From contig CM075103.1 of the NCBI GenBank assembly GCA_037576195.1, positions 744,001 through 808,000 of the forward strand: a DNA stretch of 64,000 bases, read 5' to 3'. This stretch comes from Phytoseiulus persimilis (taxonomy: Eukaryota > Arthropoda > Arachnida > Mesostigmata > Phytoseiidae). The notes below the pieces were generated by a model, which saw only the letters and a list, made by a program, of their open reading frames with translations, was not told the DNA's origin and did not search any database. The stretch's first letter is position 1; each line of letters begins with the position of its first letter. Position numbers and translations under genes: made by a program. Shown here piece after piece: positions 1,708-64,000 of this stretch.

Positions 1708-4700
1708 CTTGGATGTCCTGTTCGGAGCGGCGGCCCTTATGAGCTGCCGCGGACACAATCGGCTCAGGCCCACAATGGAAACATGAATTCACTCTCCGAA
1801 CGGAGGGAGCGTCGCTCGTAACTCATTCGAACCCACGGGTCGTTCGCTCTCGGGACGGACGCGTTGCTCGTCATAATTGCGTTTCGTTGCTGAGAGACGG
1901 CCGGGAGCGGTTGGAAAGGATTCGACGGCTGTTAAGGATGGCTTCATTCATCCTCCGCCCGTATCGGCGACGCTCGCGCCGGATGTCGGCGAAGAATTAA
2001 CGAAATGCTCCACCAACTCAATCGAGCAGAAGGTGGCCGGCGGAGGCCTTCCGCGAGAGTGCGCTCCCGCCGTCGACCCGCCGCCGCCGCCATCCCAACC
2101 GGTGGGATACGCGGGGCTCCCACTTCGAGAATGTGTTAGTTCTCCTCAACAGAAGAATTTCGGCGCGGCCCGTAACCAAGTCGAACCAGAAATCGTTGGA
2201 GTTCGCCCTCTATTCTCGTTGTCGGAAGTTCGTTAACGCGTCATTGCCAACACGAGCACTCCGCGCTGCGTTGTTTAATCAAACCAAACGGATAGTGTCA
2301 CCCGCTGAACTCCAAGCTGGGAACGAGATCGAATGAAGACGTGTGGACTCTGGGGTCCGTGTTGTGCAACGAGAGACCTAATTCGTGAGCCCGACGCGAG
2401 GACTCCCAGAGGGTTTGAACTGTAGGTTCGTCGGGTTGCCGGCGTCGTTCTGCGCTGAAATTTCTGCCAGCTCGGTGTCGACTGCCATACTGCCCCTCAT
2501 CGTGTGACAGCTCCCACCGGGTCGTTCGCGTCAGTATCAGCTGAGGCATCTAAGTGCCAACAATCCTGTGAGCAGCCCGCCAAGCTCACTCGCAACAACA
2601 TTTCACTCTTGAAGAATCTCCGATTCGCTCGCCGCGGCACGGCTTTTCGGTAATCCGGCTTCCAGGCATGCGAGCTCGGAGAGTCGCTCCGCTCGAAACA
2701 TCCGAGAGCTCGAGGTTAAGAACCCTCAGAGGATTCACATGGAGCGCCGCGTGCACCGCTCGTTCTGTACTGGTGGAGATTACCCCGCTTGGAAAGAGAA
2801 AACAACTCGGAACGTCCGTTCCCGTCGACACCGCTACGTAGCGGAACCACCATCTCTCGCTTCGTTGTGCGTTCCGAAGGGAAGCGCGTTCCAATTTGTC
2901 TTCCGCCGACGTTTTCGTGACCGGGCTCCGCTCGTTCCAGGCTATTTGTATTGTCACTCCTGGAGCAGCGGGCAGGCGGGCGAGCGGGCGAACGAACTGT
3001 TTCCGGCCTCAAGACAGAGTCGTTCGAGCAGTGGCAGCATCTGGTGAACTCTCTCCCAGAACAAGTGATCCGGAGCGATCTTGCGGAACTCGGGGGGTTT
3101 CGTTGGAAGGGTTTGGAAGGGGAGGGGGGGAGGAGACTCGACCGCGTCCTCTCCGCGAGCCAGGCGAGGGAGCGGCTGAATGTGTTCGCGTGATGCGTCG
3201 CCAGACCTGTCGCGAGCTGACAGAGACGCCGTGCGGCGAAAACGACGACGCGACTCCCGCGGAGGGAAGGCGCGTCCGCTGTCGAAGATCTTAACGCATT
3301 CATGATGATTCATGTTCGCTCGAGCACGACCGCGAGTCCCGCTGACGTCGCGGGGTTACTGAGCCGGCTTCGCAGTTTGGGAGCGCGAGCCGAGCAGCGA
3401 CGAGCGGATACGACGTTAATGATAATTTGTTTTATGCCTTATCAAATTACTCCTCGTGTTCTGAGCTTGTGTTGAGGCTTTCCTCGTAATGGACAGAACG
3501 CATCTGCCGCTCGCTCGCTAGCTGGCAAGCAAGGCTCGTTTCTCATCTCCGTCCCCGCGCTTGGCCTGCGTGTCGGGCCGGCGAGTCGGTCGACCGGCTG
3601 CTCCGCTCACACTAGGAGAACAAAAGCCTCCTGAGACAATCTGTTCACCACCGCCAACGTTCCCCGTATTTTTAGATTGCTCATGATATACATAAAACAT
3701 GCATACCTGAACGAACGAACGAGGAAGCGGACAAATCCATCCCCAATCGAGCAGAATCTCTTTCCTCATGGGACGGTGAAAGAACGCACGGGAAACTCGT
3801 GGCTGAATAGGTTTTTATCGACGTTGTTCAAATTAGCCAACTTCTGATTCTGTCATAGCGTAGGAAGCAAAACAGGCGCGGGTCGATGCCGCACTCAATG
3901 AACCGCTGGGGAGGGGGAGATTGACAGTCTCAGCGTACGCCCCGCCGGGAGACCTCACGAAGAATTCTCTTCCTTTCAGCATCCGCCAATCTCTGCTATT
4001 TCGGATCCATGAGGAGATGGCCGATAGGCCACGGGGGCGTTCCTGATATGTGAGGAACGAGCTCCGCAGGACAACGTGATGGTGCTCTTGTCCGCCTCTT
4101 TGTCCTCAGGAAGCGATAGAGGTGTCTTGGTCTTTCTTCTCGTGCTAACAAGAACGGTCCGTGTTTTCGAATAGAGAAAGTATTGACAGCCCGCCAGTTA
4201 GGCTGCATCCCGGCGGAGCCTCCGAAAGCGAGCTGAGGTGACAAGGAAGGCATCATAATACCGGTGCAAGAGGTATCCCACGACCGCGACACCGCCACTC
4301 GACATCAGGACCCCCAAGTACCGAACATTCATCCAGCCGCGTGGGAAGCCTCGTAGTATCGCAACCCGTCGGCACCGCCGGGCTTCTGATCGAGTATTGT
4401 CACGAAGCGGTCTAGCAGCAAGCAAGACGGACGGAGAGAGAGGGGGAGGAGGGGAACGATAAATGGGGAGAGGGAGAGAGTGTGTTTTTCGGAGACTTCA
4501 TTGCCCGCTTATCGGAGAGGGAACGTTCTTAATCACATGGATCGGGAGGCATGTACTTTTCGTTATCCCTCCCGCCCGCCCCATCGCGCGTGATCGCGCC
4601 CTCGGAGCTACTCCGCGACCTTGCGTTGGCGAGGAATCCACTTCGAGTCGACATTTCAAATGCCACGATCAATGAAAACGATCCCATCTCGGTTTGAGAG

Positions 4701-7700
4701 AGAATACAAAATGATTTCCGCCAATCACCATTCGCACGACTCGACGCGGGACACTAATCAAGAGCTATTTTCAGAACATGTTCAGGTGTTGTGAATAATA
4801 GCTTGTCTCGCCGCCGCGATGCCCAAGGAATAGAGTTTCACTGCGAAAAAAAAACCGAATCCGCTTAATGAGCAAAAGCCGATGGAGCCAAGCTCTGAGA
4901 TGAACACTTCGAGCTGGTCCGAAGACTTTGCCGAGTCAGCGGATACTGGTTGAGGCTGCGGTCCCGACCGCATGCGTCGGGAGAGCATCGTTCTATTGGA
5001 ACGAGGCTCAATTCGATGCGGCAACCGTCGATTCGACGGAACGGGCGTAATCGAAGTTGCGACGGAGATCTCGAACTCGGGCCCCACAGTGTTGCCTCCA
5101 GTTTTCTACCCCAGACTCCTCCGCCTGCGAGAATTTCTCCCCAAATCCGAGGTCAAAGACCCGCGTCGAATTCGTTTTCTTCCACCCATTCCCTCATGGC
5201 TCTTAAGAGTCACCCGTCTGGCAGTTTCCCGGGATCGCATCAAGCGTACCGGAGGAGAAAACCAGAGGAGATCTGGAACGAGCTGGGGCGGTCAGATTCG
5301 ACCAGCGACGGATAGCTCATGAAGGGAGAGCGTGAACGCATGAAGTTACCACGCTGTTTGTGGTCAGCTCTTTTTGGCGGTCACCATCGAATCCCAACCT
5401 CACGCTCGTATTGCGATGGCACCATGGAATGGGCGAAACACTATCGAAGTTCTGCCAAGCCTGTCAACACCGGTCCACCTCCACGATGCGCGTGGGATTA
5501 TCGCTAGCCGTATCGGAACAAGATCGCGGGTCGAATGAGTTCCTGGGACGCGAAAGCCTCCGTCGCCTGATCGGAGGCGTTATCAGCTTCGTTGTTTGTG
5601 GAAACATCATAATCTCCCCCGCCGCTATCTCAACGTTACTGGGCCAACGGTGGCCTGTGGTTCATTGCGGCGGGGTCGATTGTTCCGAGGGATTTTGATC
5701 GTGAACTCATTTGTTCGATCTGACCTCGCCTCCGAACATTCGGACCGAGCAGAATGCTTTTTGCTCCGATGACCACCACGGAACAGCTCGAAACAACTCT
5801 GGAAGAGTTCCAGCGGGGCTCTTCAGCAGAGGCAAAACGGTTCCGCAGGCCGTGTTTGGGCCGGTCGTGAGGACCCTCCACCAGATTTCGGCGGCAGCGG
5901 TGGGAAAGTCAGAATGGCATCCTCGTTTCTCTTCCTGAACCCGCCCTTTCCCCTCCCGTTTTATCGACGTGTTCCGCTGAACATTCAGTGCGTTAACGGA
6001 GCTCGTAACTTCGCTTGATAACGCATTACCACGTGCTGCGAATTTCGAGGAGGATTTGGAGAGAATGAGCCGCTTTTACTCGACCGGTGATCCCCGTTCG
6101 AGAACGCCGACGACGTGACACATGAGACTGCACTCCCCCGAAGAATAAGCAGCGATTTCTCCATTCGATTCCGCCACGCTCGACCGCGTTCAGGTTGGGA
6201 CGATTCCCTCGTTACAGAATCGGACCGGGTTTCCTCACTGGTCTCGAGTGTGCCCGACCGCTTCCGCAGTCAGTGAGGTACGATGGAACGTGCGGTGAGC
6301 GACTTTCCAGAAGGTCGAGTCATCGCTTTCTCGACTCGGGAACTGATAATATGCGACCGTAGCGAGGATCCGGTGTGATCGGAACATGATTGGGATTTTT
6401 GTGATTTCAAGCAGGGAAAAAGTAACCCCATGCAAATTTGGCAAACCTCCGTTCGCTTTGACCTCGGAGAGTGCGCGACGCATGTTTCGATCTCCCGACC
6501 AAGTTTGAGATGATACATCCGCCGAAGGTCCGCCTTTTTCACCGACGCAGAGCTCCGCTTATCGGGTGAAGAGAACGAACGAACGAATGAATGAGTGTTT
6601 GCCACCACAATCGAGAGAAGGCGCCTTCCTGATCCAAGGGATCTGAGGTGGCTTAGAAATCTTCCTCTCGTTCCTGCTGTAAATCAAAGTGATTGATGTC
6701 CCTCGAAGTCTCACTTATCGTTAGCTCGGGATATTTCCTGCAGGAGACACTTGACATGAGGCAAGGATAAGGTTGGGATCTACCTAGAAGAGGATAACTC
6801 GTTCAGCCTTTCAGCAACACGCGGTCGATAACTCAGAGACGGAGAGCGACTCGTGCTCCCGCAGCAACGATGATCATAAATCACAGGGACACACTGACGC
6901 TCCGCTAACTTCTCATGCAGGAGTTCAAGATACCGATCCGACCCTCAGAATTCCCTACGACAGCCCCCCCCCCCCCCCCTCTTGCTTTCGATATTGCTCA
7001 ACAACCTGCGATGGATCGATACATTTATTGGCGGTCAGAGAAGCTCTCGATTTCCGTAATCGGAAGCTGCCGTAGAGGAGAACGAGATCGGACCCAATTG
7101 AAACCCAAATAATTATCACCGATTATTGACACGATCACGTGGGTCCATTTCGAAAACAGTGGACCAAGATTCGGGAGCACAACGATTCCTGAGAAGCTGT
7201 CGATTGGCTTCTGGAAAGTAAACTCCCAACTCTGTGATCGTCCGGTTTCCCGAGAACTCCCCTCGAATGGAACTGAAGTGATCGGTTGCGAAAGGCCAAA
7301 GTGGCGACACTTCGGCTTTCCGTTCGATCGGAATCTTCTCGGAAATGTGATAGGTCAGGGCCGGAGCCAACAATTCAGAGTAGTCCGTCCCTCGCAGAAG
7401 CCTTTGCAAAAGGACGAAAATGGTTCGCTTATCGACTCGATCGCGGCTTCTTCAGCCGCTTCAGAAAAGAAGTCGATTAGGCGGCCAGAGGTGAAGAAAA
7501 AGACATCGAGTGCGAGATCCGAGAGAAGAGCTCCCAGCAAATTGATCCTCTTTCCAACTTTACTGGTTCGCCCATTTGAGGAGAAATTCGCGCTTCCAAG
7601 AGGAAACTCGATTGAACGGGACCGACGAGTTGGAACGTGTCGAGCAGGTCGTTCGGAGTCGGAGAGAGTTCCACGAGGTGAGACGTCATCCCCGCTGCTT

Positions 7701-34170: not shown

Positions 34171-37100
34171 ATGATCCTTCGAAACGCGAACCGCGATCGC
34201 TACGCGGAGGAATCTGCTGCTACTGGAAATCAAGATCGTGAAGGTGGCTCGTTGTTGGAGGACGACTTCTTCAACGAGGAGGATTCAAACGACGACGATG
34301 TCTCTTATGGGCCAACGGTGTCGTATGGCTCCTCGCAGGGGACTGGTAGGGGACGGGGACGAGGCAGGGGTAGGGGCAGAGGCCGAGGTCGTGGGAGGGG
34401 ACGAGGACGTGGTCGTGGCAGAGGTCGTGGGCGGGGAGCAGCAACCGCTCACGCTCACATGATCGGAGAAATTCCGGTGCCTGAAGAGAGGATGGAAGAC
34501 AATTTCCCGTCGGACGTCAACCCGCGATGTATTTTCGACGTCTTGTTGAAAGGGAGAACAAACATCAGCTATATGGTCGACGAGTGGATAATAAACTATA
34601 AGACGAACAGAGAAGAAGGGATTCGAGACCTGATGCAGTTCTTCATCCAGAGCGCTGGCTGTAAAAGTCAGATAACACGTGAGTTCACCTGCCGCTATGA
34701 TTATTGATCATAGAAAGATGAAGTATGTGTATCTTGGAACGATTGAACTCCTGATCCCGTCCGATGAATCGTATCTCTGAGAACGTCGATCGAGCTGAAA
34801 TTTCTGATTGTATGCCGCAGCGGACATGCAGCGAACAATGGACCACCCCCAAATTATCCGGCGGATGACTGAGGAGTTCGATGAGGATTCAGGAGATTAT
34901 CCTCTGATCATGCCTGGCCCACAATGGAAGAAATTTCGGCATCATTTCTGTGACTTCGTCCACCAGTTGGTAAAGAGCTGCCAGTATTCGATTATATACG
35001 ACTCCTACATGATGGACAACATTATAACCCTCCTCACTGGACTCTCCGATTCCCAAGTGAGTGAATTATTGAATCAGGTTCCTGGAAAGATCGAAAATTC
35101 GGCCGCATTGGTCTCCAGTAGCTGCAGCACGCAGCGTATAGCATCAGACCCAAACTTAGCTCATATTCAGGTGCGCGCGTTCCGACACACGGCAACTTTG
35201 GCTGCCATGAAGCTGATGACTGCTCTGGTGGACGTTGCACTGAACCTTTCCATCAATCTTGACAACACGCAACGTCAGTACGATAATGAGTGGGCTCGAA
35301 CCCGCGATCACAACTCCGAGCGATTGCAAATGCTTCTCACGAGGAGGAGAGAGCTGGAGGAGAATAACGAAGACATCAAGAACATGCTGACTTACCTCTT
35401 CAAATCCGTCTTCGTTCACCGCTACAGAGATATGCTTCCCGAAATCCGATGCATCTGCATGGTGGAGATCGGAAACTGGATGAAGAAATTCCACCAACAG
35501 TTTTTGGACGACTCATACCTTAAATATCTCGGCTGGACGTTGCACGATAAAGTGGGTGAAGTTCGTCTCAAGTGCCTGCAGGCACTTCTGCCGTTGTACG
35601 CTAACAATGATCTCTGCACGAAGATGGAACTCTTCTCCACCAAGTTCAAGGAACGCATAGTGGAAATGACTCTGGACAAGGAGTTCGACGTCAGCGTTCA
35701 AGCAGTGAAATTAATCATCTATATCCATCGCTATCACGATCAGGTGAGAGACTGCGTTATGTAAATCGATCCCAAACCAATGTGAACGCGAGTCCCCCGA
35801 GAATGCATTTGGACAGCGAGAATCATTCTGTAATTCTTCTCCATCAGGTGCTGACTGATAAAGACTGCGAACACGTTTACGAGCTGGTGTACTCGTCCCA
35901 TCGAGCTGTAGCGCAAGCCGCTGGTGAGTTCTTGAATGAGCGCCTATTCCAGCCTGACGACAAGACAGTCATCAAGACCAAGCGTGGAAAAAGGATGTCC
36001 CGATATACCAGCGCCCTCCGGGACATGGTCCTGTTCTTCATCGAAAGTGAACTACATGAGCACGGTAAGCTCTGAACTAGAGTTCTAGGAATCAGGAAAA
36101 GTCAGCAAACACTGACGGGCCCCCACTGACTGTTGATCTCTTTCCTCTCGAAGGAGCCTACATCGTCGACAGTCTCATAGACAGCAATCCCATGGTAAAG
36201 GACTGGGAGTGCTACACGGATCTTTTACTCGAAGAGCCAGAAGATCCAGAAGATGCTTTCGAAGACAAACAAGAATCCACATTGATAGAGATCATGGTTT
36301 GCGCTGTCAAACAGTCGGCCACGGGTGAACCACCTGTCGGACGAGGCAGCAGCAGGCGTCAGCTCACAGCCAAAGAACTCAAACAAGTCCAGGATGATCG
36401 GACGAAGCTCACCGAACATTTCATCCAGACCCTCCCGGCCATTCTGAACAAATATGTGGCAGACGTCGACAAGGTTGCTAATCTGTTGGTGCTGCCCCAA
36501 TATTTCGACCTTGAAATCTACACGACCTCGCGTCAAGATCGCTCACTTGACCAACTGCTGAGCGTTATGAACCGTATTGTGGAGATGCACGTGCATGACG
36601 ACGTCCTGAGCGCTTGTTCGAAGACCTACGAAGCACTCTGTAATGAAACTCTTGCTATCCAATCGAAGTGCAGCGTGAGTCGAGCCACCTTGATCGATGG
36701 TCTGAGGAACAAGTGAGTACAAACGAGATGAGCCCAGTATCCTGGGACTCCATGAGGAATTGAAACGATGCGCTCGATTTCACTGTCCATCAGGAACTCT
36801 TAACGAAATTCTCAGAAATCCTGGTTTCCTTTGCAGCTATCAAATGACGCTCAACGATTTCCATGAGTACGCTGCGGATGACACACCCGACGAAGAAACG
36901 GTGTTCAGGATAAACAACGCATTGAAAAAGATCGCATTGTTCTATGAGATACACAATCTTGGTCCTTGGAACATATGGAATCTCCTGTGGGAACCATGGG
37001 TTAAAGCTTACGTCAGTCAGCAGACCCATTTGCCCGTGGACGGTGTACGTTTCGCCATATCGTCTTGCGAATCTTCGCTTTTCTGGGATCTGAAGGTGTT

Positions 37101-38237
37101 CGAAGACGGCGCAGGACACCACGGTGCAGTCACGGTTTCGAACTTGCGCGACCGCGTCCACGAATACATGGCTTGCTTATCAACCCTCCTCATGGACAGC
37201 ACCTTGACCGAGGAAGCCTTCATGCGCATCTGTGACATGCTGGTTATTTACTCGCGGGAGGCCAAAGTGATGGTGGCGTCGGAGCCCCTCTGTTACGAGC
37301 CGTCCGACATGATGATTGAGGATCTCAAAAGATTCGTGGAGAAACGGGTTTTCGTTGACGATCACGACGACGCAATGGACGAGCAGCAAAAAATCGAGAA
37401 TCTTCATAAACGACGTAAATTCCTGGCTGCCTATAGCAAGCTGAGCATCTATAACGTGATCGAAATTCCTCATCTCCAACTGGTGTTTCGCAATTACATG
37501 CGTTTCTATAACGATTATGGTGACATCATCAAAGCGACGTTAGGGAAAGCGAGAGAAATCAACAAGGTGATTTGTGCCAATACGATGGTCGAAGCTCTGT
37601 TCTCACTTTTCAAAGAACTCGATCGAGATCGCAATCACTGCATCGAGCGGAGCTCCGAACATTTCGGAAACCTAAAGGAGCTGGCGAAGCGATTCGCGCT
37701 CAGCTTTGGTCTCGACAACGTGAAAAACAGAGAAGCCATAGCGGCCTTCCATCGACGGGGAATCCAGCTGGCAGCGAATCCTCTCGAAAACGAATACAAC
37801 CAATTGACGCATCCGCCGAATCTGGCGTTCCTAGAACTGCTCATGGATTTCGTCAACAAACTTATGAAGCAAGATCGTAGGGTCGTCTGTACATATCTCG
37901 AGAAAAGTATACCCGCAAGATTACCCGTCAGCAAGTTCGATGATTGGGAACCTCACCGCCTCTACCGGTGAGTGCGACAACGATTCCCTGACATGAGACG
38001 ACGCGAGTGAGAGGAATTTTCTTATGTTTGTCTGTCACGGCTTTGCGTGAGCTTCTGAGGTTTTTTTTTCGCTCTTACAGGTCAGCGCTTCTCCAAGGTG
38101 AGGAAGCCCCACCGATGGTTGGTGGTCGCCAGCCGAGCAAGCAGTACCAGGGTCGAGGGCGAAAGAGGAATCGAGATGAGGATGAAATCACTGTAATGGA
38201 TTACGACGGTGATGACACGGAAGATACCATGATGTAA
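34171..38237 (+). CDS. SA: Cohesin subunit SA / stromalin (STAG family, 1126 aa)
   Basis: HEAT-repeat subunit of cohesin that binds the RAD21 kleisin and supports sister-chromatid cohesion and chromatin looping. Seven exons join in frame: 34171-34678, 34821-35056, 35171-35743, 35848-36064, 36154-36712, 36837-37967, 38081-38237. Landmarks shared with human STAG include [128 protein letters not shown] [25 protein letters not shown] and TYLEKSIP. The N-terminus is acidic and is followed by 15 Gly-Arg pairs (59-88). The protein ends about 100 residues earlier than human STAG2, in a short tail with [12 protein letters not shown]. The start was chosen after a spliced leader; an upstream in-frame ATG at 34096 lies before the presumed acceptor. 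Confidence 0.97.
34345..34434 (+). repeat. In-frame hexanucleotide tract encoding 15 Gly-Arg pairs
   Basis: Fifteen GGN-AGR/CGN codon pairs in SA exon 1 encode uninterrupted (GR)15. Synonymous codons vary widely (AGG, AGA, CGA, CGT and CGG for Arg), so the tract is held at protein level rather than being a fresh perfect microsatellite. Confidence 0.95.
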
Positions 38238-39473: not shown

Positions 39474-42400
39474 TGCGACAGCTAGAAGGTCTGTTCAGGA
39501 GTTTCAAATAGAAGCGAGAAGCGACGTGCCCCGGTGATGACACGCTCCCGATGATAAGAGGACTTCCAGCGTGGCTTTCTCCTCCACACTGTACGTCAGC
39601 AGGGATGTATTCTCGAACGGTGTTTGTGATCGCCGGATCCTGCACTTCCCATCAACTTTGAACACACGGAACTTCACCCGACGGAATAGCCGTGGCGGTT
39701 GCTAAGGACTCATAGTCGACAAGCTCGATAGCAAGTCAGACTCTATTCTCAGTGGTTTGACGTTCTGTTTTCGCAGATTCAAGCACACTCTCCCAATCGG
39801 ACCGCTATTTCTGCTTGCCGCGGCGAACCGGGCGCGAAGCACAGGCATCGGATGGAGCAGCGACAGCTGCGGGCGCCAACTGACTCGAAATGATCTCCAA
39901 CGGGGAAACGACCTTCTTCCTGAAAGGAAGAGCATAGGCTTCACCTGCTTTTCAGGAACAAGTCCCTCCATGGGAAAACTCCCTCAAAGGAGGAAAGGTG
40001 TAACGAAATTTCGATTAAATCGCTAAGACGTTGAGTTACTGATGATAGTGATCTCTGCTCAATCATAATCGAGCCTCGGCTGTTTCGCCGGACTCCAGCC
40101 ATGAACATGAAAGTCTTTCAAATTCCTACAACTTCACGCTCATCGCTCGGCGGACAACGTCTACTCCTCATCAGCGTGGACGCTGATTCCGCGTCCCAAG
40201 GAGACGGAACTCTTGAATATAGAGGCATTCACCAATGAGGGCTTTTCGCCGGGTTCGGCGGAACATCCGAAGACTTCGATTAGTCATCAGATCGATGATT
40301 TTTACGAGTGATTCTCGAGATGAGTCTCAGCAGTGCGACGGATGCTTATGTGTCTTCCGAGTAAAGTCTGAGGAGGAGATGGTGCGCTCAAGATCCATGC
40401 AGCTGAATGAGCGGAAGATTCAGTTTCCCAAAACCACCAAGATCCGCTTTCCTCGGCGGAGCAGTGCTGAAATTTCTATGTTCCATGAATGGGGGAGACT
40501 TTATGTATGAGCTCCGGAAACCGATGTCAGACTCTTGCTTCCGGTCAGCTTCACGGCCGCTCACCGTGGGAGAAATTTCTCCAGCCGGAGATTGATCAGG
40601 AATGATCCGCGATCACCTACAGTCATACAGGGTCGTCATCGTGAGTTGGGAACTTCCTCACCCTCCCTCCCTTTGCTCATCACTCGTTGAAAAATGATCG
40701 GCGCATTTTGTCGAAGGGCCAGCTCTTGGCGTCGAGGTGGGAACGATCGTTCGCCCTTCTTATAGTGCCTGAGCTTCAAATCTGGACTTCACGGCCGTTT
40801 GAGCAGCATCCCATACCCCGTCGAGCCCGACACTTCCGAATTCGGTCGGTTGACTTTGGAAGTTTCTCCCTGAGTTTTTGGGAAAAAATCATAAAAAAAA
40901 ACGCATTGCATCAAACCGATGCGATCAATGTGAATGAAGATGAAACGATGCTTCAACCTCTCGGCTATCGATCGCAAAAAAATCTATCTAGAATCGGATC
41001 CTATTTCGTCGCGTGAAGAGCAAAAAGTCAGCTCAGGTTCACGAACTTCGCTATCTTATTAATCTAGAATGAAGTTACGGATGGGTCCGAACTTGATGGC
41101 ACGATCGGTGGAATGGTGTCCCTGCAATCTCAAAAATCTCGGTTCGAGTTGGTCTGTATGCTGGAGCTGGACTGTGTGCTTGAGCTTGATGTGAAGATCC
41201 AAGAAAAGTTGCGGAAGAAATTTCGAGTAACAAAGTTGTGTTCCACCGGTTGTGAGATGAATCAAGGAACTAAGTTAGATTTCAACGGATCAGATCAAGG
41301 AGGCCATTACATCTTTGCTTTCTCCTGGCCGAACCGCATAGCCGCAGAAATGGGGGGTAGGCATAAGATGCTCGTGACTTCGTCTTCTACCAGCATTCGT
41401 GTGTTTCCATGGGCAGTGCAATGGCGATAACGAAGCCTCAGAATCATTCGTAAACTCCAAGTCATTTCCTTTAGCATTGAGGTCCCTGAAACCTTAGTAC
41501 TTTTCCGGAGTATAATCGTCACACGGAATCGGTGGCGAGCAGAGGAGCTTTCTCGGGTTCCGCCCGAGCCGACAGCTAGCCTGAACACGGTGGTGGATCG
41601 CTCCACTAATCACGTGACGTGGTTCCGGTCTTACTAACGCGATGGGGGTATCCATACTCACACCAAGCGTGGGGTATCTGATTGTTTTCCGATCCTGTTT
41701 CCGACCTGATGGGTGAACAAGAAGGATTCCTGCTTTTTCGAAATTGATCTAGCTCCCGCCTCAACTCAAAGTAATCTCATGAACAGACCACGCGACCGTA
41801 ATTTTTTCTTTCGACGAATTTGTTCTGTCCGTCGAGGGTTGCTCCGTCAACGAGTTAAATCATGGACTGCCTGTTAGGTTTCCGAAACCGTTCACGGAAA
41901 TCCCATCACCAATCACGGTGAACGCGAATTTTTCGAGCCTCAATACTGCTGACTCGGCGATACGAGCTTGAAATCGCTCCCCAGAGTGATTCGAATTTTA
42001 CCCATCAATAGGAAGTAAGAGAGCCAACATGAGGTGTTGATGGGTTCGAGAAGCAAGTAAGGGAGCCCAATAACTTCTGACGCTCGGAGTCTCTGACGGA
42101 ACTAGGCTCTGCGAGAGAGCCGGCCCAGGATCGAGCCAGCGCGGTCGCGGATAAAGTAGCCCGGCAGCATCGCGGCGCAGTCAGCATTGTACAAAGGGTG
42201 TCAAACACGTTCGCGGAGGAAGTCATCCTCTCGCCGTATCATCATTGCCTCCGCCCATTGGAGCTTCCCCTCTTTCGACAACAGCCCGGAATACGAATTC
42301 AAGAAAGTTATGCTCCTCCTGCTGAGCTCATGACAGAGAAAATTTTTGCATCCGTACTTTTTGGTTCATGTCGAGTGCTTGCTATACTAGAAATTTCCTT

Positions 42401-47461: not shown

Positions 47462-48539
47462 GCTTACCTAGAGTCTCCGATCAACTATACTTAACGAGAA
47501 GCAACAACGCCGAGGGCATTATAATTTTTCCATCGCTCGTTCCAAAGATCGCCAGTTGAACTACTTTCGAGAAAGCTTCTTCGAGGATCGATTTTGTAGA
47601 TTTGTACCACGGGAAATTTCACGGATGACGACGCTACGTATTTCGGATAAATAACTGGCACGCAACGAGGCATGGAAAAAAACGGTGTGGTGGAGGAAAG
47701 CAAAAGACATTCAAAGCGATGGTGGAGAATATTTATTTTGGCGAGTGAACGTGCAATACCGCAGATGATTCCAATCTCGCCGCTGGAAAGTTTTGAATCG
47801 ATCCTGTGCGAGCGCCGAGATGGAAAAGTCGTACGATTTTCCCTTGAAACAACCTCGGAAATTTGTTGCTGGACAGTTTGTTCCTATATTTATATACATG
47901 AACACTTCCGCCGATATATAGGTTTGAATCATGTATTTGCTGTCATCACGATGAGTTATATGTATTCGCAAAAAGCTAATCCAGTGTATATAACGCTTTT
48001 TAACTGAGTCCTGAGATGGTGCTCGTTTTCCCGGCGTATCTCTATCCTGTCGGTGTTAAAGTGAGAATACGACCGGACGCTACACGCTTTCAATATCCAG
48101 GCTCAGGTGATATAAGATTAACCAAAGGATAAAGTTCGCTTATTGCCGAGGGACCTATCTGAGACCGAATGAATGGGTGAATATGAATGGATATGATCAC
48201 TTTTACCTGTTAAATCACCGGTGACTTGATCCCGTTGTTCAGTTTGAGTTTGACTTCATCGGGATAGAAATACCGCACCAACTAGTCTTGAGCAAGTTTG
48301 ATTGTTTCCAATAAATACCTAATGTCAGCAAAACGCCTTCCTCGTGTCTGGTGTATTTTCAGGATAGATTCATCCGTGAAGCTCACCAGGAGCCTTACGG
48401 GAGCGGGAAGAGAGCATATGGAATGACCTCTCGGCTACCTGGCCATTCCATCATAAATATGAAAACCCATCATCGCCGGACAGACCATGATGACATATTC
48501 AGGCGTTCGTTTCTTCCTCTTCTTTGCATAGTCTTCACA
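47462..48539. other. 3' flank of the zinc-finger gene
   Basis: Probably 3' untranslated sequence, then spacer. A 111-aa frame at 47672-48007 has no motif. An AATAAA occurs near 48311, about 850 bases after the stop, and could be a distal poly(A) signal. The right end carries the 9-bp GTCTTCACA (48531-48539) duplicated by the adjoining transposon. Confidence 0.35.
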
Positions 48540-49521
48540 CGGACCCGGACATTTTGGCGCAGACATTTTGGCGCAAGACATTTTGGCGCAGGACGTCTTG
48601 GCGCAGGAACTTTGGGTGCAGATTCAGGTGGAGCTCCCATGAGTAATTCAATCAATCGCGACAGTATTGTTCTGTGGCTATCGATGCTTTTTTGCGATGT
48701 ATAAGACCATCAGAACTTTTATCTATACTCCATCGTAAACGGTCTTGTGGACTCTCGACGATGGTCTCGTGGGCCCTCGAAACGGTGTCGTAGGCTCTCG
48801 TAGGCACTCGTAGACTTTTTTTTAGAGGCGTCGCCCACAGTTTTCTGATGACGCAAACTCAGTCCGCGTCCTGATGTACATCCATCCTCATTTCTTCAGA
48901 TTCAATAACGCTCAGCTAATAAATATGTTTGATGATTCATGATTTCATCTACCGAAGTGTAAGGTCGTTGAATTGTGCTCCACAATTTCCGCTCGCGGTT
49001 GAAACTATTCATAGAAGATATCGAACCACTTTGAGAGACAGCGATGTCAGTACTTTTCATGAGGGGTCAATAAGATGTGGACAGCTTTCGGGCGGTCACC
49101 AATGAAAGTGGGCTGTGGGACCACGAGTCCGTCGCCTAGATAGACAAGTGATAGTTGTGGACATCTTGAAATTCGTTGCGACCGAGTCCCACAGCGTGTT
49201 CTCCCAGCGTACGTCGACATTCCGATCGGGAGCCCATGCTGACATGCGTTCTTCAACCGAGGATCACTGCCGAGTCTGCATCGACGGCGCCGGTGCATTT
49301 CAGAGCGAGTAACTCTCCGAGTGAGCGATTCGAGCGAACCTTTTCGTGCAAGTGGGAATGGGGACGATTGATGAAAGCTCCGGTGGTCATATTCGCCACA
49401 TGAAAGCATCGATAGCCACTGAACAATACTGTTTTGGTTGCTTCATCTGAATCTGCGCCAAAACGTCCTGCGCCAAAATGTGCGTTGCGCCAAAATGTCT
49501 GCGCCAAAATGTCCTAGACCG
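48540..49521. mobile_element. Foldback-type non-autonomous DNA transposon, 982 bp, with 9-bp TSD
   Basis: The two ends are long inverted repeats: 48540-48690 and the complement of 49402-49521. The outer parts are built from tandem units of the type ATTTTGGCGCAG, four to five copies each side. The inner parts share CAGTATTGTTC(T/A)GTGGCTATCGATGCTTT. The left terminus is CGGACCCGGACATTTTGG and the right one, on the minus strand, is CGGTCTAGGACATTTTGG. The element is flanked directly by GTCTTCACA at 48531-48539 and 49522-49530, a perfect 9-bp target-site duplication. Tandem-repeat termini with a 9-bp duplication fit foldback/Mutator-like elements. The interior has no transposase ORF, so it depends on a transposase encoded elsewhere. 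The perfect duplication suggests a fairly recent insertion. Confidence 0.9.
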
Positions 49522-51162
49522 GTCTTCACAAGCTGTGCCTCCGCGAGCAAAACGTTACCTGTAGTCCCTCGCTTCAAGGGGGCTGGTCTAGCAAAAGAAT
49601 AGGACTGTGATTTACGCTCACTACAACGCTGCGGTGCTACCCGACCGAATGTTGGCGGGACCTCCTTCTGGGAGGACTCTATCTGGCGAAAGCTATCTGC
49701 CAGAAAAATTGAGGGCCAACTTCGTTCTCTTCGAATGGACAGGAAGGGTCTCGATTTTGTGCCTCGACCACGATTCCTGCCCACCAGGTTGACTCAAGAG
49801 GATTAATCTTCCAAGAGTTCTTGCTGTTCGTTGCCTCTCAAATCTGAACCACAGAGGTCGCGATCGGCTGACAAGAAAAATTTCGAATTCGATTTTTCGA
49901 AGAGAAGAAACTTCTTCATCATCGGCTTGCTCGAGGAAGGCAAAGCTGGTTCTCGTGGCCGTAGTTCATTCTCATGACACATGCCTCAGCTACAGAACAA
50001 AGAAAATATTACTCGATTCCTAGAAACTGGTGGGCAGGAATTAGGAGTGTATCTTCTATTCTTTCGAAATTCTCCGAATTTCAATCTTTCCCTCTTCATA
50101 TTCCGGGACATTCAAGTTGTTCCCCCAGACTTGCATTCGAGCTCTGACATCCGGTTGATCACCTTTGACGTTTTTCTCCGTGTTCTTCTCGAGCAGAATA
50201 CACGCTTCAACTATAGGCTTCCCTTGATTCGAGAGCTGCCCAGCTTTCCGTCCAAGAACTAAAGGTCTGTCAGATTATCAAACGTCGAAGTTCTGACGTT
50301 GGGTCAATACAAAATGAAGGATCGAGGATTCTTCACGATATATCATGTCCCCATGTGGTGCGACATTGGAGGCCGGCCGTCGTTACGGCCATTTGTAAGC
50401 TATTCTTCTTGCTGATTATGATACCAGACATGGCTGCTAGAATTTTCGTGCTCCTAGAATCGTTGATCGTATACCTCGGCCTTGGTCGCATATCAAGTCG
50501 GTTCTGAATGTAAGCACTTTCGGCCAGCGTTCCTCAAAGGGGCGCGGTTCCACTAATGAAATTGAGTTTTGATAAGTCGAGTTCAAGGCGCAGCTCATCA
50601 TGCCACAAGGCCTTCAGCCTGGGCTAACAGATTTTCAACCAAAAATATGAAGGAGCTTCCCCCGCCGGAAACTGACCGTTACCACCCAGGGAGTGGGCGA
50701 CATCGGCTCGCTTGCATATCTGTCTTCTGATGAACCGATCCCGAGAAGTATCTCCTCAATCCACACACCGATGCGATCCCCCAGATGGCGAACATCACAG
50801 AAACACGCCCACATCTTTGACATTGAAGTTTCGGAAAACGAGACGCCCTCTACGCTCGGGAAGCAGATCTACCTCGAGACAGATACTTTGTCGAGGAAGA
50901 AACCATTATGCGAAGGATTCAATCCTCACTTTAATCCGTCTCGGTCTCATATCTATAGAGGACGAATCGGATCCTCTCCCCGACTCTGTCAGTACTATCC
51001 GCGAACGCATCGGAAGTATACTCTCGTCAATGGTTGAACAGTCAAGTCAGCAATGGAGATGAAGGGCGTTCAAGTGGAAGTGAAGCTTTCCTCGGGCCAT
51101 TCGAGATCGAGGTCGAACATGGCGGAGTGTGGTGATAAACCTGGGTTCCCATCAGGTATGAC
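49522..51162. other. Spacer between two transposons
   Basis: Begins with the right GTCTTCACA duplication and ends with GGTATGAC (51155-51162), the left duplication of the next element. No gene was recognised; a 93-aa frame at 49981-50262 and overlapping frames at 50693-51062 have no motif. Confidence 0.4.
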
Positions 51163-61080: not shown

Positions 61081-64000
61081 AACCAGATCCAAAGCTATCA
61101 TCGTCAGATAGTCCTTTCTCGATTTTCAACGGTCCGTCCACTTCGTCGATAGGGGTTGAGTTTAGAAGCTGAGAATCTGCTCTGTTTTTCCTCATCTCCT
61201 CTCTAAACTCGATGTAACCCATTTGCGAGACGAACACATAGCATAGGAGAAAGAGTGGGGGGGGGGGGGTTCGATATCACCTCAAATCCCCAGATCAGAT
61301 ATAATCCAACGATGTCTTTAGTTGTCCTTGTACGTTTTAGACTCCAAAATGTCGGTGGCTACAGCGTGTAATGATGAGGCAATACCATCAGCTGCTTGTT
61401 GTTGTACACAGAGCAGCACGCGATGGAGTTAAGCCTAACGGTGTTCGAACTCGTCTTATTCAACTCAGTAGGCTGATAATAAGAGCTGATTGAAGCTGTC
61501 GGCAACCTATTCGGCGATTAGCACGTTGGGGACCGAGAGTAGAGACGTTTCTGATCACTTCCGTCTTCGCAGACAGTTGCTTCAGTGCCCCAGTTTGAGC
61601 TGCGCTCCACAGACAAGCAGGGTAAACTCACCTTTCAGCCATTATTCTTCGTCGATCTTGCTGAATAGTCTTGATTTCGATCTTGCACCGTATTCACCCA
61701 AGCAGCATAACGAGAGTGACCCGAGAGGACTTCGCCACACACCTGGATCTCCACTTGGTTCACTGCGCTGCGTTATTTTGACACTCCACAGCCATTGCAA
61801 TAGCGGACATCGTCTCAAGCCGACAGCGCGTTAGCAGCTAGCCCTCCGATTCGTTTCGGGATAAGCGCGGCAACTCGCTGAGGTGTTTCCGCCAAACTAA
61901 CAGCTAGAGTCGGAACGCAATGGAACAGTGAATCCTATTCCGGTCATTCATCGGAGTTTCAGCCACCCTTAGGGCTACGCAATAATGATGATCATCATTG
62001 TCTGTCAGCCCCCTTATATGGTTTCCAAATGACCTCGCATTCCTACTACTCGGAGGCTTGGTCGATCCTCGATCCTTTGCGCAGCTCAATATTGCACTTC
62101 GAGAAGAATATCGATTTCGCGCCTTGATTGGCGCCGGATGGCTGTAGTGAGCTGGGGTAGGGAGTATCTGGGAACGAGATGAGTGGATTCGGAACGTTGA
62201 AAATCAGTGAAAACTAGTAACATCCATCGTATCATTCCTCTACCCACTCAATGAGCGTTCCGGCCGATATGACATTTGCGTCCAGATGCGGAGGGTACGG
62301 TTCAGCTGGATTCCGTTGTGATTCGCGGCGCCTTGGACACGCTCACTTAGACCGGTTCAAGAGCGGTATTCGTAGTTGCCCAGCAGGTGTTGTCGAGGGA
62401 AAACTGATTGGCAGAATCATTGCAATCTCGTGGCTGTTACCTGTTGCTAGGAGGCGGCGGAGAAGGAAGCTGAAAAGGTCGGAAATTCGTTAGTACGGAC
62501 TCCGGGCACTCCATGCCGTGGGCGAGGACGACTGCGGGTCCACGGCGTGCTTCAGTTGACGGATTCACACGATTTCGCGCGGCGGTCTGGCCACTGCCCG
62601 AACTGGGACACTTTTTTGGTCTAGCGAGGATGTATCTGTGGTTCTCGAAGTGTGGAGCCGGGTCACGTTGGTGAAGCCGGGGGGTTTTCTCGGTAGGGCC
62701 CGTGATCTTTGGAAATTTCTCGGAAAAAGTGCGAGGCTCGACGCGGGATAGGATGCTGCTCAAACGCCCGGCAACTCCAGATTCTATCTCAGGCTCTTTG
62801 AGAAGGACAAAAGATCGTTTCAACCTCGACGTCAAGAGCTGACCACTTGACAAGACGCGTCCTCGATGCATTCGCCCCTTATCCCACAAGGGAAGCCGGA
62901 TTCGAAGAGTTTCCCGGTAGCGAAAAGTTCTCAGATTGGTTCAAACTACCCAGCTTGGGAGCTGCTGGGTCAATCCGGCCACTTTATCTTTCATCCGAAA
63001 ATCGGGCTCCTCCACCTCTTCGTCCTGGAGAGAAAAACTGAATGAGCTCGATTTTCGGGCGGAGAAAGAAGCGATCGCAAGAAGAATTTCAAGATTCTCA
63101 TCATTTTTCACGGACTTATGAGCAAAAGAAGAGAAGGTAGGAAAGTTCCTGACTTACGATGACCTCCCCATAGTTCTCGAAAATCTAGATAGAATATGGG
63201 CCCAAATCCCGTGAACACTCGGCACGATTTTCCTCATTCCGACCTTACGATGTTTGGAAGGAGATCCTAAATGCCCCCGACATAATCTGATTCGGCAAGA
63301 TCGGAGCTGCTGATAGCAAACGAGGTGAGTGATGAACACGCAACACGATCCAGCAAGTTCCGTCTGACGAAATCGAGGCTCAGTTGCCCGGCTGACTTGG
63401 TCTAACCTTGGTGAATATTGTCGTATGTGACGATCAATACCTTGGCACCAGCTGTCGGTGAGCAAACATTTGATGATCAACAGGCGCCTCCTGTTTCGCT
63501 TGCAAACAATGATCAAGAGTTGGACATGAATGCAAGAAGCGGTGCAACAGAGCATATACCTCGTCGAGCTCATTCGAGTCCCTCCGACTAGCAGTCGGAC
63601 TCCCGAACCGGTGGGAGGACTCCGATTTATAATCCGAAGACATCGGGGGACTACTTCAACGATGTTATATGAACACAGGGTTGCCCATGCATGATTCGGG
63701 AGAATGGTGGCTCGCAGGTATTCATCGCGGTTCTGCAGTTTGGGACCTGGCCCCATGATGCATAGTCCGCAAGGGGCATCCCGCGAACAATGCCTCCAAA
63801 CACCAATCCGGGAACGACTGCAGGAATGGATTGAAAATTCGAGTTTGCTTCCCGTCGACATTTTATGAAGATGCGTGTCTCCACGGGAGCCTGGTTGCTC
63901 GATGTCTTTACCCAATCTGGTTCATCGATCTGGCAATCATGGCTCATCTGGTCCTATGCTCGACATAAGGATCTCATGCGATACACTCACATCTCAATGG
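61081..64000. other. Right-hand end, no recognised gene
   Basis: Includes a 13-base poly-G run at 61257-61269, a minus-strand gtgagt donor near 61630 that could end a short first exon (MAE..), and dispersed-repeat copy 2. The 253-aa minus frame (63154-63915) and the overlapping 98-aa frame (63651-63947) conflict with each other and have no motif. Confidence 0.4.
62700..62872 (-). repeat. Dispersed repeat, copy 2
   Basis: Inverted counterpart of about 40697-40870. Read on the minus strand it shares CAGCTCTTGACGTCGAGG, GCCTGAG, CGTTTGAGCAGCATCC and CGCGTCGAGCC with copy 1. No terminal repeats or duplications were found, so the ends are approximate. Confidence 0.6.

Follow-up and report, generated by a model that had tools for sequence, protein, structure and literature searches.

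The locus described here raises the question of what kind of element a 982-bp foldback structure in the genome of Phytoseiulus persimilis is, and whether it has moved. The source genome comprises 181 Mb; among its 127 contigs, the four listed first measure 28-55 Mb. Six contig ends were checked for telomere repeats and gave none, one of the six consisting of N throughout. The window, that is, the whole 64-kb stretch of DNA that was analysed, corresponds to C3:744001-808000, and the element occupies positions 48540-49521 of it on the plus strand, as delimited by its ends, its arms and the copies of its family. A sequence-only reading had described these ends together with a perfect 9-bp target-site duplication (TSD). 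Both were confirmed, and GTCTTCACA was found on the left (48531-48539) and on the right (49522-49530) with a perfect match over 9 bp.

The left terminus carries the motif CGGACCC (48540-48546, plus strand; A1-like), and it is followed by a tandem array of about 4.2 units of 15 bp (48547-48608, plus strand). The right terminus, read inward, carries CGGTCTA (49515-49521, minus strand; A2-like) next to an array of about 4.1 units of 14-15 bp (49453-49515, minus strand). Both arrays were defined with Tandem Repeats Finder and by comparing the arms. As had been claimed, the arms were inverted and built of GACATTTTGGCGCA-like units; about four were present per side, at a spacing of 14-17 bp. The outer arms were 92% complementary over 37 nt, and one arm stretch reached 97% over 29 nt. 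The inner end of the left arm (48593-48639, plus strand) was 79% complementary to 49435-49481. An inner unique block had also been said to be shared by both arms. It was present over 82 nt on the left (48650-48731, plus strand) and on the right (49362-49443, minus strand), with 630 nt between the two blocks, but they matched at only 76%. The middle between the arms (48732-49361) gave no Rfam match up to E 1, for example to a captured RNA or a histone-hairpin-like motif.

The arm units were specific to the element within the window. With at most one mismatch, GGACATTTTGGC occurred seven times in the 64 kb, always in the element arms, against 0.28 expected, and none of 100 shuffles reached seven. 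The single-strand fold of the element was computed at -210.6 kcal/mol, compared with -138.0 (sd 4.6) for 20 shuffles. By this computation, the single-stranded arms can fold back strongly. A search with a 13-base seed found four inverted pairs of at least 30 nt in the 64 kb, two of which belonged to this element. Elsewhere in the window, a 57-nt inverted pair (40779-40835 and 62727-62783; 82% complementary, 22 kb apart) possibly represents two copies of another dispersed repeat, and the open frame at 36706-37971 matched the HEAT repeats of cohesin SCC3/SA (PF24571).

A genome search with the element, which the sequence-only reading had proposed, showed the family to be dispersed, with copies on each of the four large contigs. 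Of 119 candidates, 40 were scored, and the copy counts from this search are lower bounds. Twenty stretches around the best-matching copies were examined, and later ones were chosen mainly by MULE frames and by terminal or arm matches. Among 38 locus rows with an element match, both ends were called in 27 and not in 11. Since L023 and L042 are one place seen twice, the 27 rows represent 26 distinct places. Read inward, the left end was CGGACCC in 15 of the 27 rows and CGAACCC in five, and seven other forms were each seen once. The right end was CGGTCTA in 24 rows and CGGTCCA in two, the remaining row being the miscalled L017. The two end types were swapped in none of the 27 rows, with orientation taken from the element alignment. 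The left end followed by GGCGC was found at 35 genome places with at most one mismatch (12 exact), and the reversed pattern at none. When a less strict pattern of 18 bases was used for the end, allowing two mismatches, 617 places were obtained, about 100 of them listed, versus 79 for its reverse. The number of arm units differed among copies and between arms; of the loci compared for units, L021 had the highest number of matches, 24. L021 (C2:42337370) and L061 (C2:42353578) lie 16 kb apart with flanks about 95% similar and near-identical duplications, and this pair is probably a segmental duplication that carried the insertion along.

We then compared the flanks of the copies. Perfect 9-bp duplications were found in 10 of the 26 distinct places, and duplications with at most one mismatch in 17, at a length within the 8-11 bp of the MULE superfamily. 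When flanks were taken from different copies as a control, none of the 650 pairs matched over 9 bp with at most one mismatch, and two of them did so when two mismatches were allowed. L021 also had a perfect duplication, although it is among the 11 rows without both ends called. The other nine places had no TSD within one mismatch at the called ends. Two of these had duplications with two mismatches (L019, L028), two looked by eye like exact 8-bp duplications (L013, L052), and five were unexplained or unclear. L012 had three mismatches (one inserted base, by eye), the only match at L015 was partial and shifted, and the called ends of L022 and L062 had no duplication. In L017, an internal unit had been called as the end, and its outer ends had no duplication either. 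The sequence-only reading had expected all copies to share the ends and the flanking duplication. This expectation failed at the nine places and held at the other 17, and the family as a whole survives the comparison.

Empty sites were examined with the copy at C1:18135877-18137988, which sits inside a repeat of another family and itself carries an insertion. Its flanks were joined and compared with the other loci examined. Among the eight relatives listed, seven were uninterrupted with a single ATCCGGGTG at the junction (L043, L044, two in L049, L051, L053 and L065), and the eighth, L064, had a deletion at the junction. In the filled copy, the right duplication was exactly ATCCGGGTG, and the left one agreed at 7 of 9 positions, two being different. 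For two further copies, L009 and L018, diverged relatives spanned the junction at 76-78%. For the window copy, no paralogous empty site was found: its left 300 bp matched itself only, and its right 300 bp matched six diverged relatives, the longest of which started at base 51-56. Because TSDs occur together with uninterrupted related sites that carry the 9-bp target only once, the 982-bp family transposes, or did so in the past. Past mobility, fixed ends and a 9-bp TSD are therefore properties of this family.

Tandem arrays can arise by slippage, and those in the arms could have been made in this way. The structure might then be an inverted repeat formed by chance or recombination, or a satellite seed, with no transposon involved. 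The fixed ends, the TSDs and the empty sites in the same genome argue against this origin, which we regard as extremely unlikely.

The element was also compared with the MULE-encoding elements of the same genome. PF10551 (MULE) was scored at 150 places of 220 candidates. Transposase-bearing elements of 3.4-3.9 kb were identified that encoded MULE proteins and had 9-bp TSDs, and their arms were built of GACATTTTGGC-like units. L040 (1658-5171), L039 (3122-6533) and L048 (about 2953-6240) represent one family, with a length of about 3.4-3.5 kb. It has a 496-aa frame, counted from stop to stop, which was open in L039 and L040 and split in L048; in the two loci with the open frame, a CGGTCTAGGACATTTTGGC end was located about 1 kb away from it. 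The L040 protein (2728-4215) matched FLYWCH (PF04500, E 9.9e-11) and MULE (PF10551, E 7.1e-11), and it was 97% identical to that of L039. Three other MULE frames examined, partly incomplete, had the MULE domain only. No PHD finger was matched at E 0.001 in the L040 protein or in these three partly incomplete frames. FLYWCH, a mark of the Phantom/Muta group, was thus found in the linked 496-aa family and not in the 982-bp element itself. L039 had a perfect 9-bp duplication, and the duplication of L040 was offset by one base at one end (by eye).

The two families shared an end and units but not the middle. The 19 terminal bases, CGGTCTAGGACATTTTGGC, were identical between one end of the 496-aa family and the right end of the 982-bp family, so that the CGGTCTA motif also occurs in a transposase-bearing family. 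The counterpart of the left end differed, being CGGAGCCGGTC in the 496-aa family versus CGGACCC followed by GGCGC. The arms of L039 and L040 had related units with a longer composite period of 32 bp, and their other end was CGGAGCCGGTCATYTTGGC. A derivation of the 982-bp middle from the compared transposase elements was considered and rejected, since no convincing similarity between the middles was seen. In L039-L065, 19 end pairs had a TSD within one mismatch, compared with 0 of 6648 shifted controls, these pairs having been selected for a TSD. Ten of the 19 belonged to the 496-aa family and measured 481 bp to 3.4 kb. In each of the ten, CGGAGCC stood at one end and CGGTCTA at the other, the latter reading AGGTCTA in a single case. 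Short derivatives of this family kept its arms and part of its middle, and by this comparison they show the way in which small foldback forms arise. At L049, two adjacent short derivatives (500-1260 and 1415-2177) lie in opposite orientation, each with a perfect 9-bp duplication; the same spacing of ends recurs about 31 kb away, which suggests a local duplication. A further MULE family had CATTTCGGC-like arm units and 9-bp duplications (L045, 2155-6070; L046, about 2408-6190). Its proteins were 53-62% identical to the 496-aa protein, and its duplication was perfect in L045 and 8/9 in L046 (by eye).

We conclude, with a probability of roughly 0.87, that the 982-bp element is a non-autonomous cut-and-paste transposon of the MULE superfamily, of the Phantom/Muta/Tm1 type with foldback-like arms. 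The Foldback or Mutator-like origin proposed by the sequence-only reading is in agreement with the family-wide 9-bp TSDs and with the local MULE elements that have the same right end and TSD length and a similar unit motif. Foldback-like arms are also known in unrelated superfamilies (PMC3169594; PMC3688188), and no transposase was found inside any copy, so the element could belong to another superfamily, for example a P-type one like Galileo, with arms that converged on those of the local MULEs. However, a 19-base terminal identity, a unit motif and a 9-bp TSD all in common with local MULEs are hard to obtain by convergence, and we consider this origin very improbable.

A transposase-bearing partner of the MULE-type element was sought by comparing the end patterns with the 150 scored MULE places by eye and by inspecting three half-element loci. 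The sequence-only reading had proposed to look for MULE-encoding relatives, and elements sharing the right end and the units were indeed present, but none with both ends of the 982-bp family was found by end patterns among the 150 places. The left end followed by GGCGC was seen in a delimited MULE element at 0 of its 35 places, as compared by eye with the same 150. Two of the 35 lay within 6 kb of a scored MULE place (by eye). At C1:53120692, the MULE frame falls outside a delimited copy, and C3:34144696 has half of the element only, with no second end found. On the element side of the half copies, no second arm was found within 3.8 kb (L059, L060) or 8.2 kb (L041). L060 had three near or exact matches to the flanking 9-mer, and no end-like sequence came after any of them. 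In L041, the half copy and a MULE frame are about 3 kb apart, and there was no second end and no TSD.

The age of the family was estimated from 17 copies, namely the window copy and those among L009-L028 with a long match. K2P distances over the core were 0.025-0.070 (median 0.048). The tree was star-like, and the terminal branch of the window copy was 0.017. Outside this set there are more diverged relatives, which match part of the element at 80-85% identity. The family had been called young; the star-like tree fits this description, but the median divergence of 4.8% and the lack of any two among the 17 copies closer than 2.5% do not. From these distances, the family looks like the product of a past burst rather than one plainly active today. 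The element may thus derive from a lost or unassembled MULE with GGCGCA-type arms and now be immobile after its burst, which is an extinct-helper version of the MULE reading. The star-like tree, the median K2P of 0.048 without near-identical pairs and the lack of a transposase-bearing element with both ends at the 150 places are consistent with it. On the other hand, perfect TSDs persist in 10 of 26 places, and the open 496-aa MULE frames of L039 and L040 suggest that a candidate helper may still exist. We give the loss of the helper somewhat less than even odds.

For a non-autonomous MULE-type element, mobility would proceed as follows. A MULE transposase encoded at another locus would act on it in trans, by analogy with Muta1 (PMC5225508). 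The transposase would bind the repeated arm units, as suggested by analogy with Galileo (PMC3688188), pair the two unlike ends and excise the element. Insertion at a staggered cut would then produce the 9-bp duplication. Two MULE families with unrelated middles have one end, CGGTCTAGGACATTTTGGC, in common, and the second end is family-specific (CGGACCC or CGGAGCC). One transposase might conceivably serve both families, with CGGTCTAGGACATTTTGGC as the common recognition end and the other end as a family label, but we consider this doubtful. If it were true, the two families would be a natural system for studying how unlike end pairs are read and how a helper comes to serve a non-autonomous family. 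In either case, a well-delimited family, its empty sites and candidate helper elements are available in one genome.

The architecture of the family resembles several known systems. Tm1 of Meloidogyne (Mutator/Foldback) includes non-autonomous elements about 1 kb long. Its arms are composite, with units that vary in number and are mostly of 14 bp, and with a GA-rich motif D at the inner end; its unlike 7-bp end motifs are followed by GGA, and its TSDs are mostly of 9 bp. Motif A1 of Tm1 starts with CGG, and the autonomous form encodes a FLYWCH-MULE transposase of 496 aa (PMC3169594). Likewise, the 982-bp family has the unlike, unswapped ends CGGACCC and CGGTCTA with GGA next, and its arm units, about 14 bp long, vary in number. 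The unit here is GACATTTTGGCGCA whereas motif C of Tm1 is CGATTCAGTATCGC, which was absent from the arms of the 982-bp element when the arm sequence was read. The end motifs differ too, and the 982-bp element lacks an Rfam match such as one to a histone hairpin. The equal length of 496 aa of the Tm1 transposase and the local frame is probably a coincidence because the local frame was counted from stop to stop.

MULEs of Aedes aegypti have 8-9-bp TSDs and many non-autonomous derivatives with heterogeneous middles, and in 10 of 12 families with long terminal inverted repeats (TIRs), tandem repeats of 9-15 bp lie in a subterminal position (PMC5225508). Among these MULEs, Muta1 encodes a transposase of 504 aa, and in yeast its transposase moved natural non-autonomous elements that differed in TIR length and internal sequence (PMC5225508). 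The TSD size, the tandem-unit arms and the similar-sized transposase of the local MULEs agree with this system. The sequences are different, and the activity of Muta1 comes from a yeast experiment, whereas the local family is known from sequence alone.

Rehavkus is described with 9-bp TSDs, with a PHD finger and with a minisatellite located before the 3' TIR (PMC6446971). The local elements resemble it in TSD length and in carrying a minisatellite; in contrast, both arms are arrays here and the 496-aa protein has FLYWCH and MULE domains. For Phantom, the same MULE survey gives a TSD length of 8-10 bp or none at all, the latter where it is not indicated, and FLYWCH, SWIM or no additional domain (PMC6446971). 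Galileo of Drosophila also has foldback-like arms with tandem units, which contain transposase binding sites, but unlike the local MULE proteins its transposase belongs to the P superfamily and has a THAP domain (PMC3688188).

The sequence-only reading had not recognised the family as described. A full-text search by words, not sequences, found no paper naming it, and words starting with mite, Acari, FLYWCH or foldback are absent from the main text of a 2026 arthropod survey (PMC13359780). The sequence family may therefore be undescribed, but its architecture is known from Tm1 (PMC3169594) and Muta1 (PMC5225508). The general picture of Mutator-type transposons is unchanged by it. As far as can be told, the 982-bp family represents a sequence family that is new within a known kind of transposon, and it adds one more case of Mutator-type elements with tandem-unit arms, as in Aedes and Meloidogyne.
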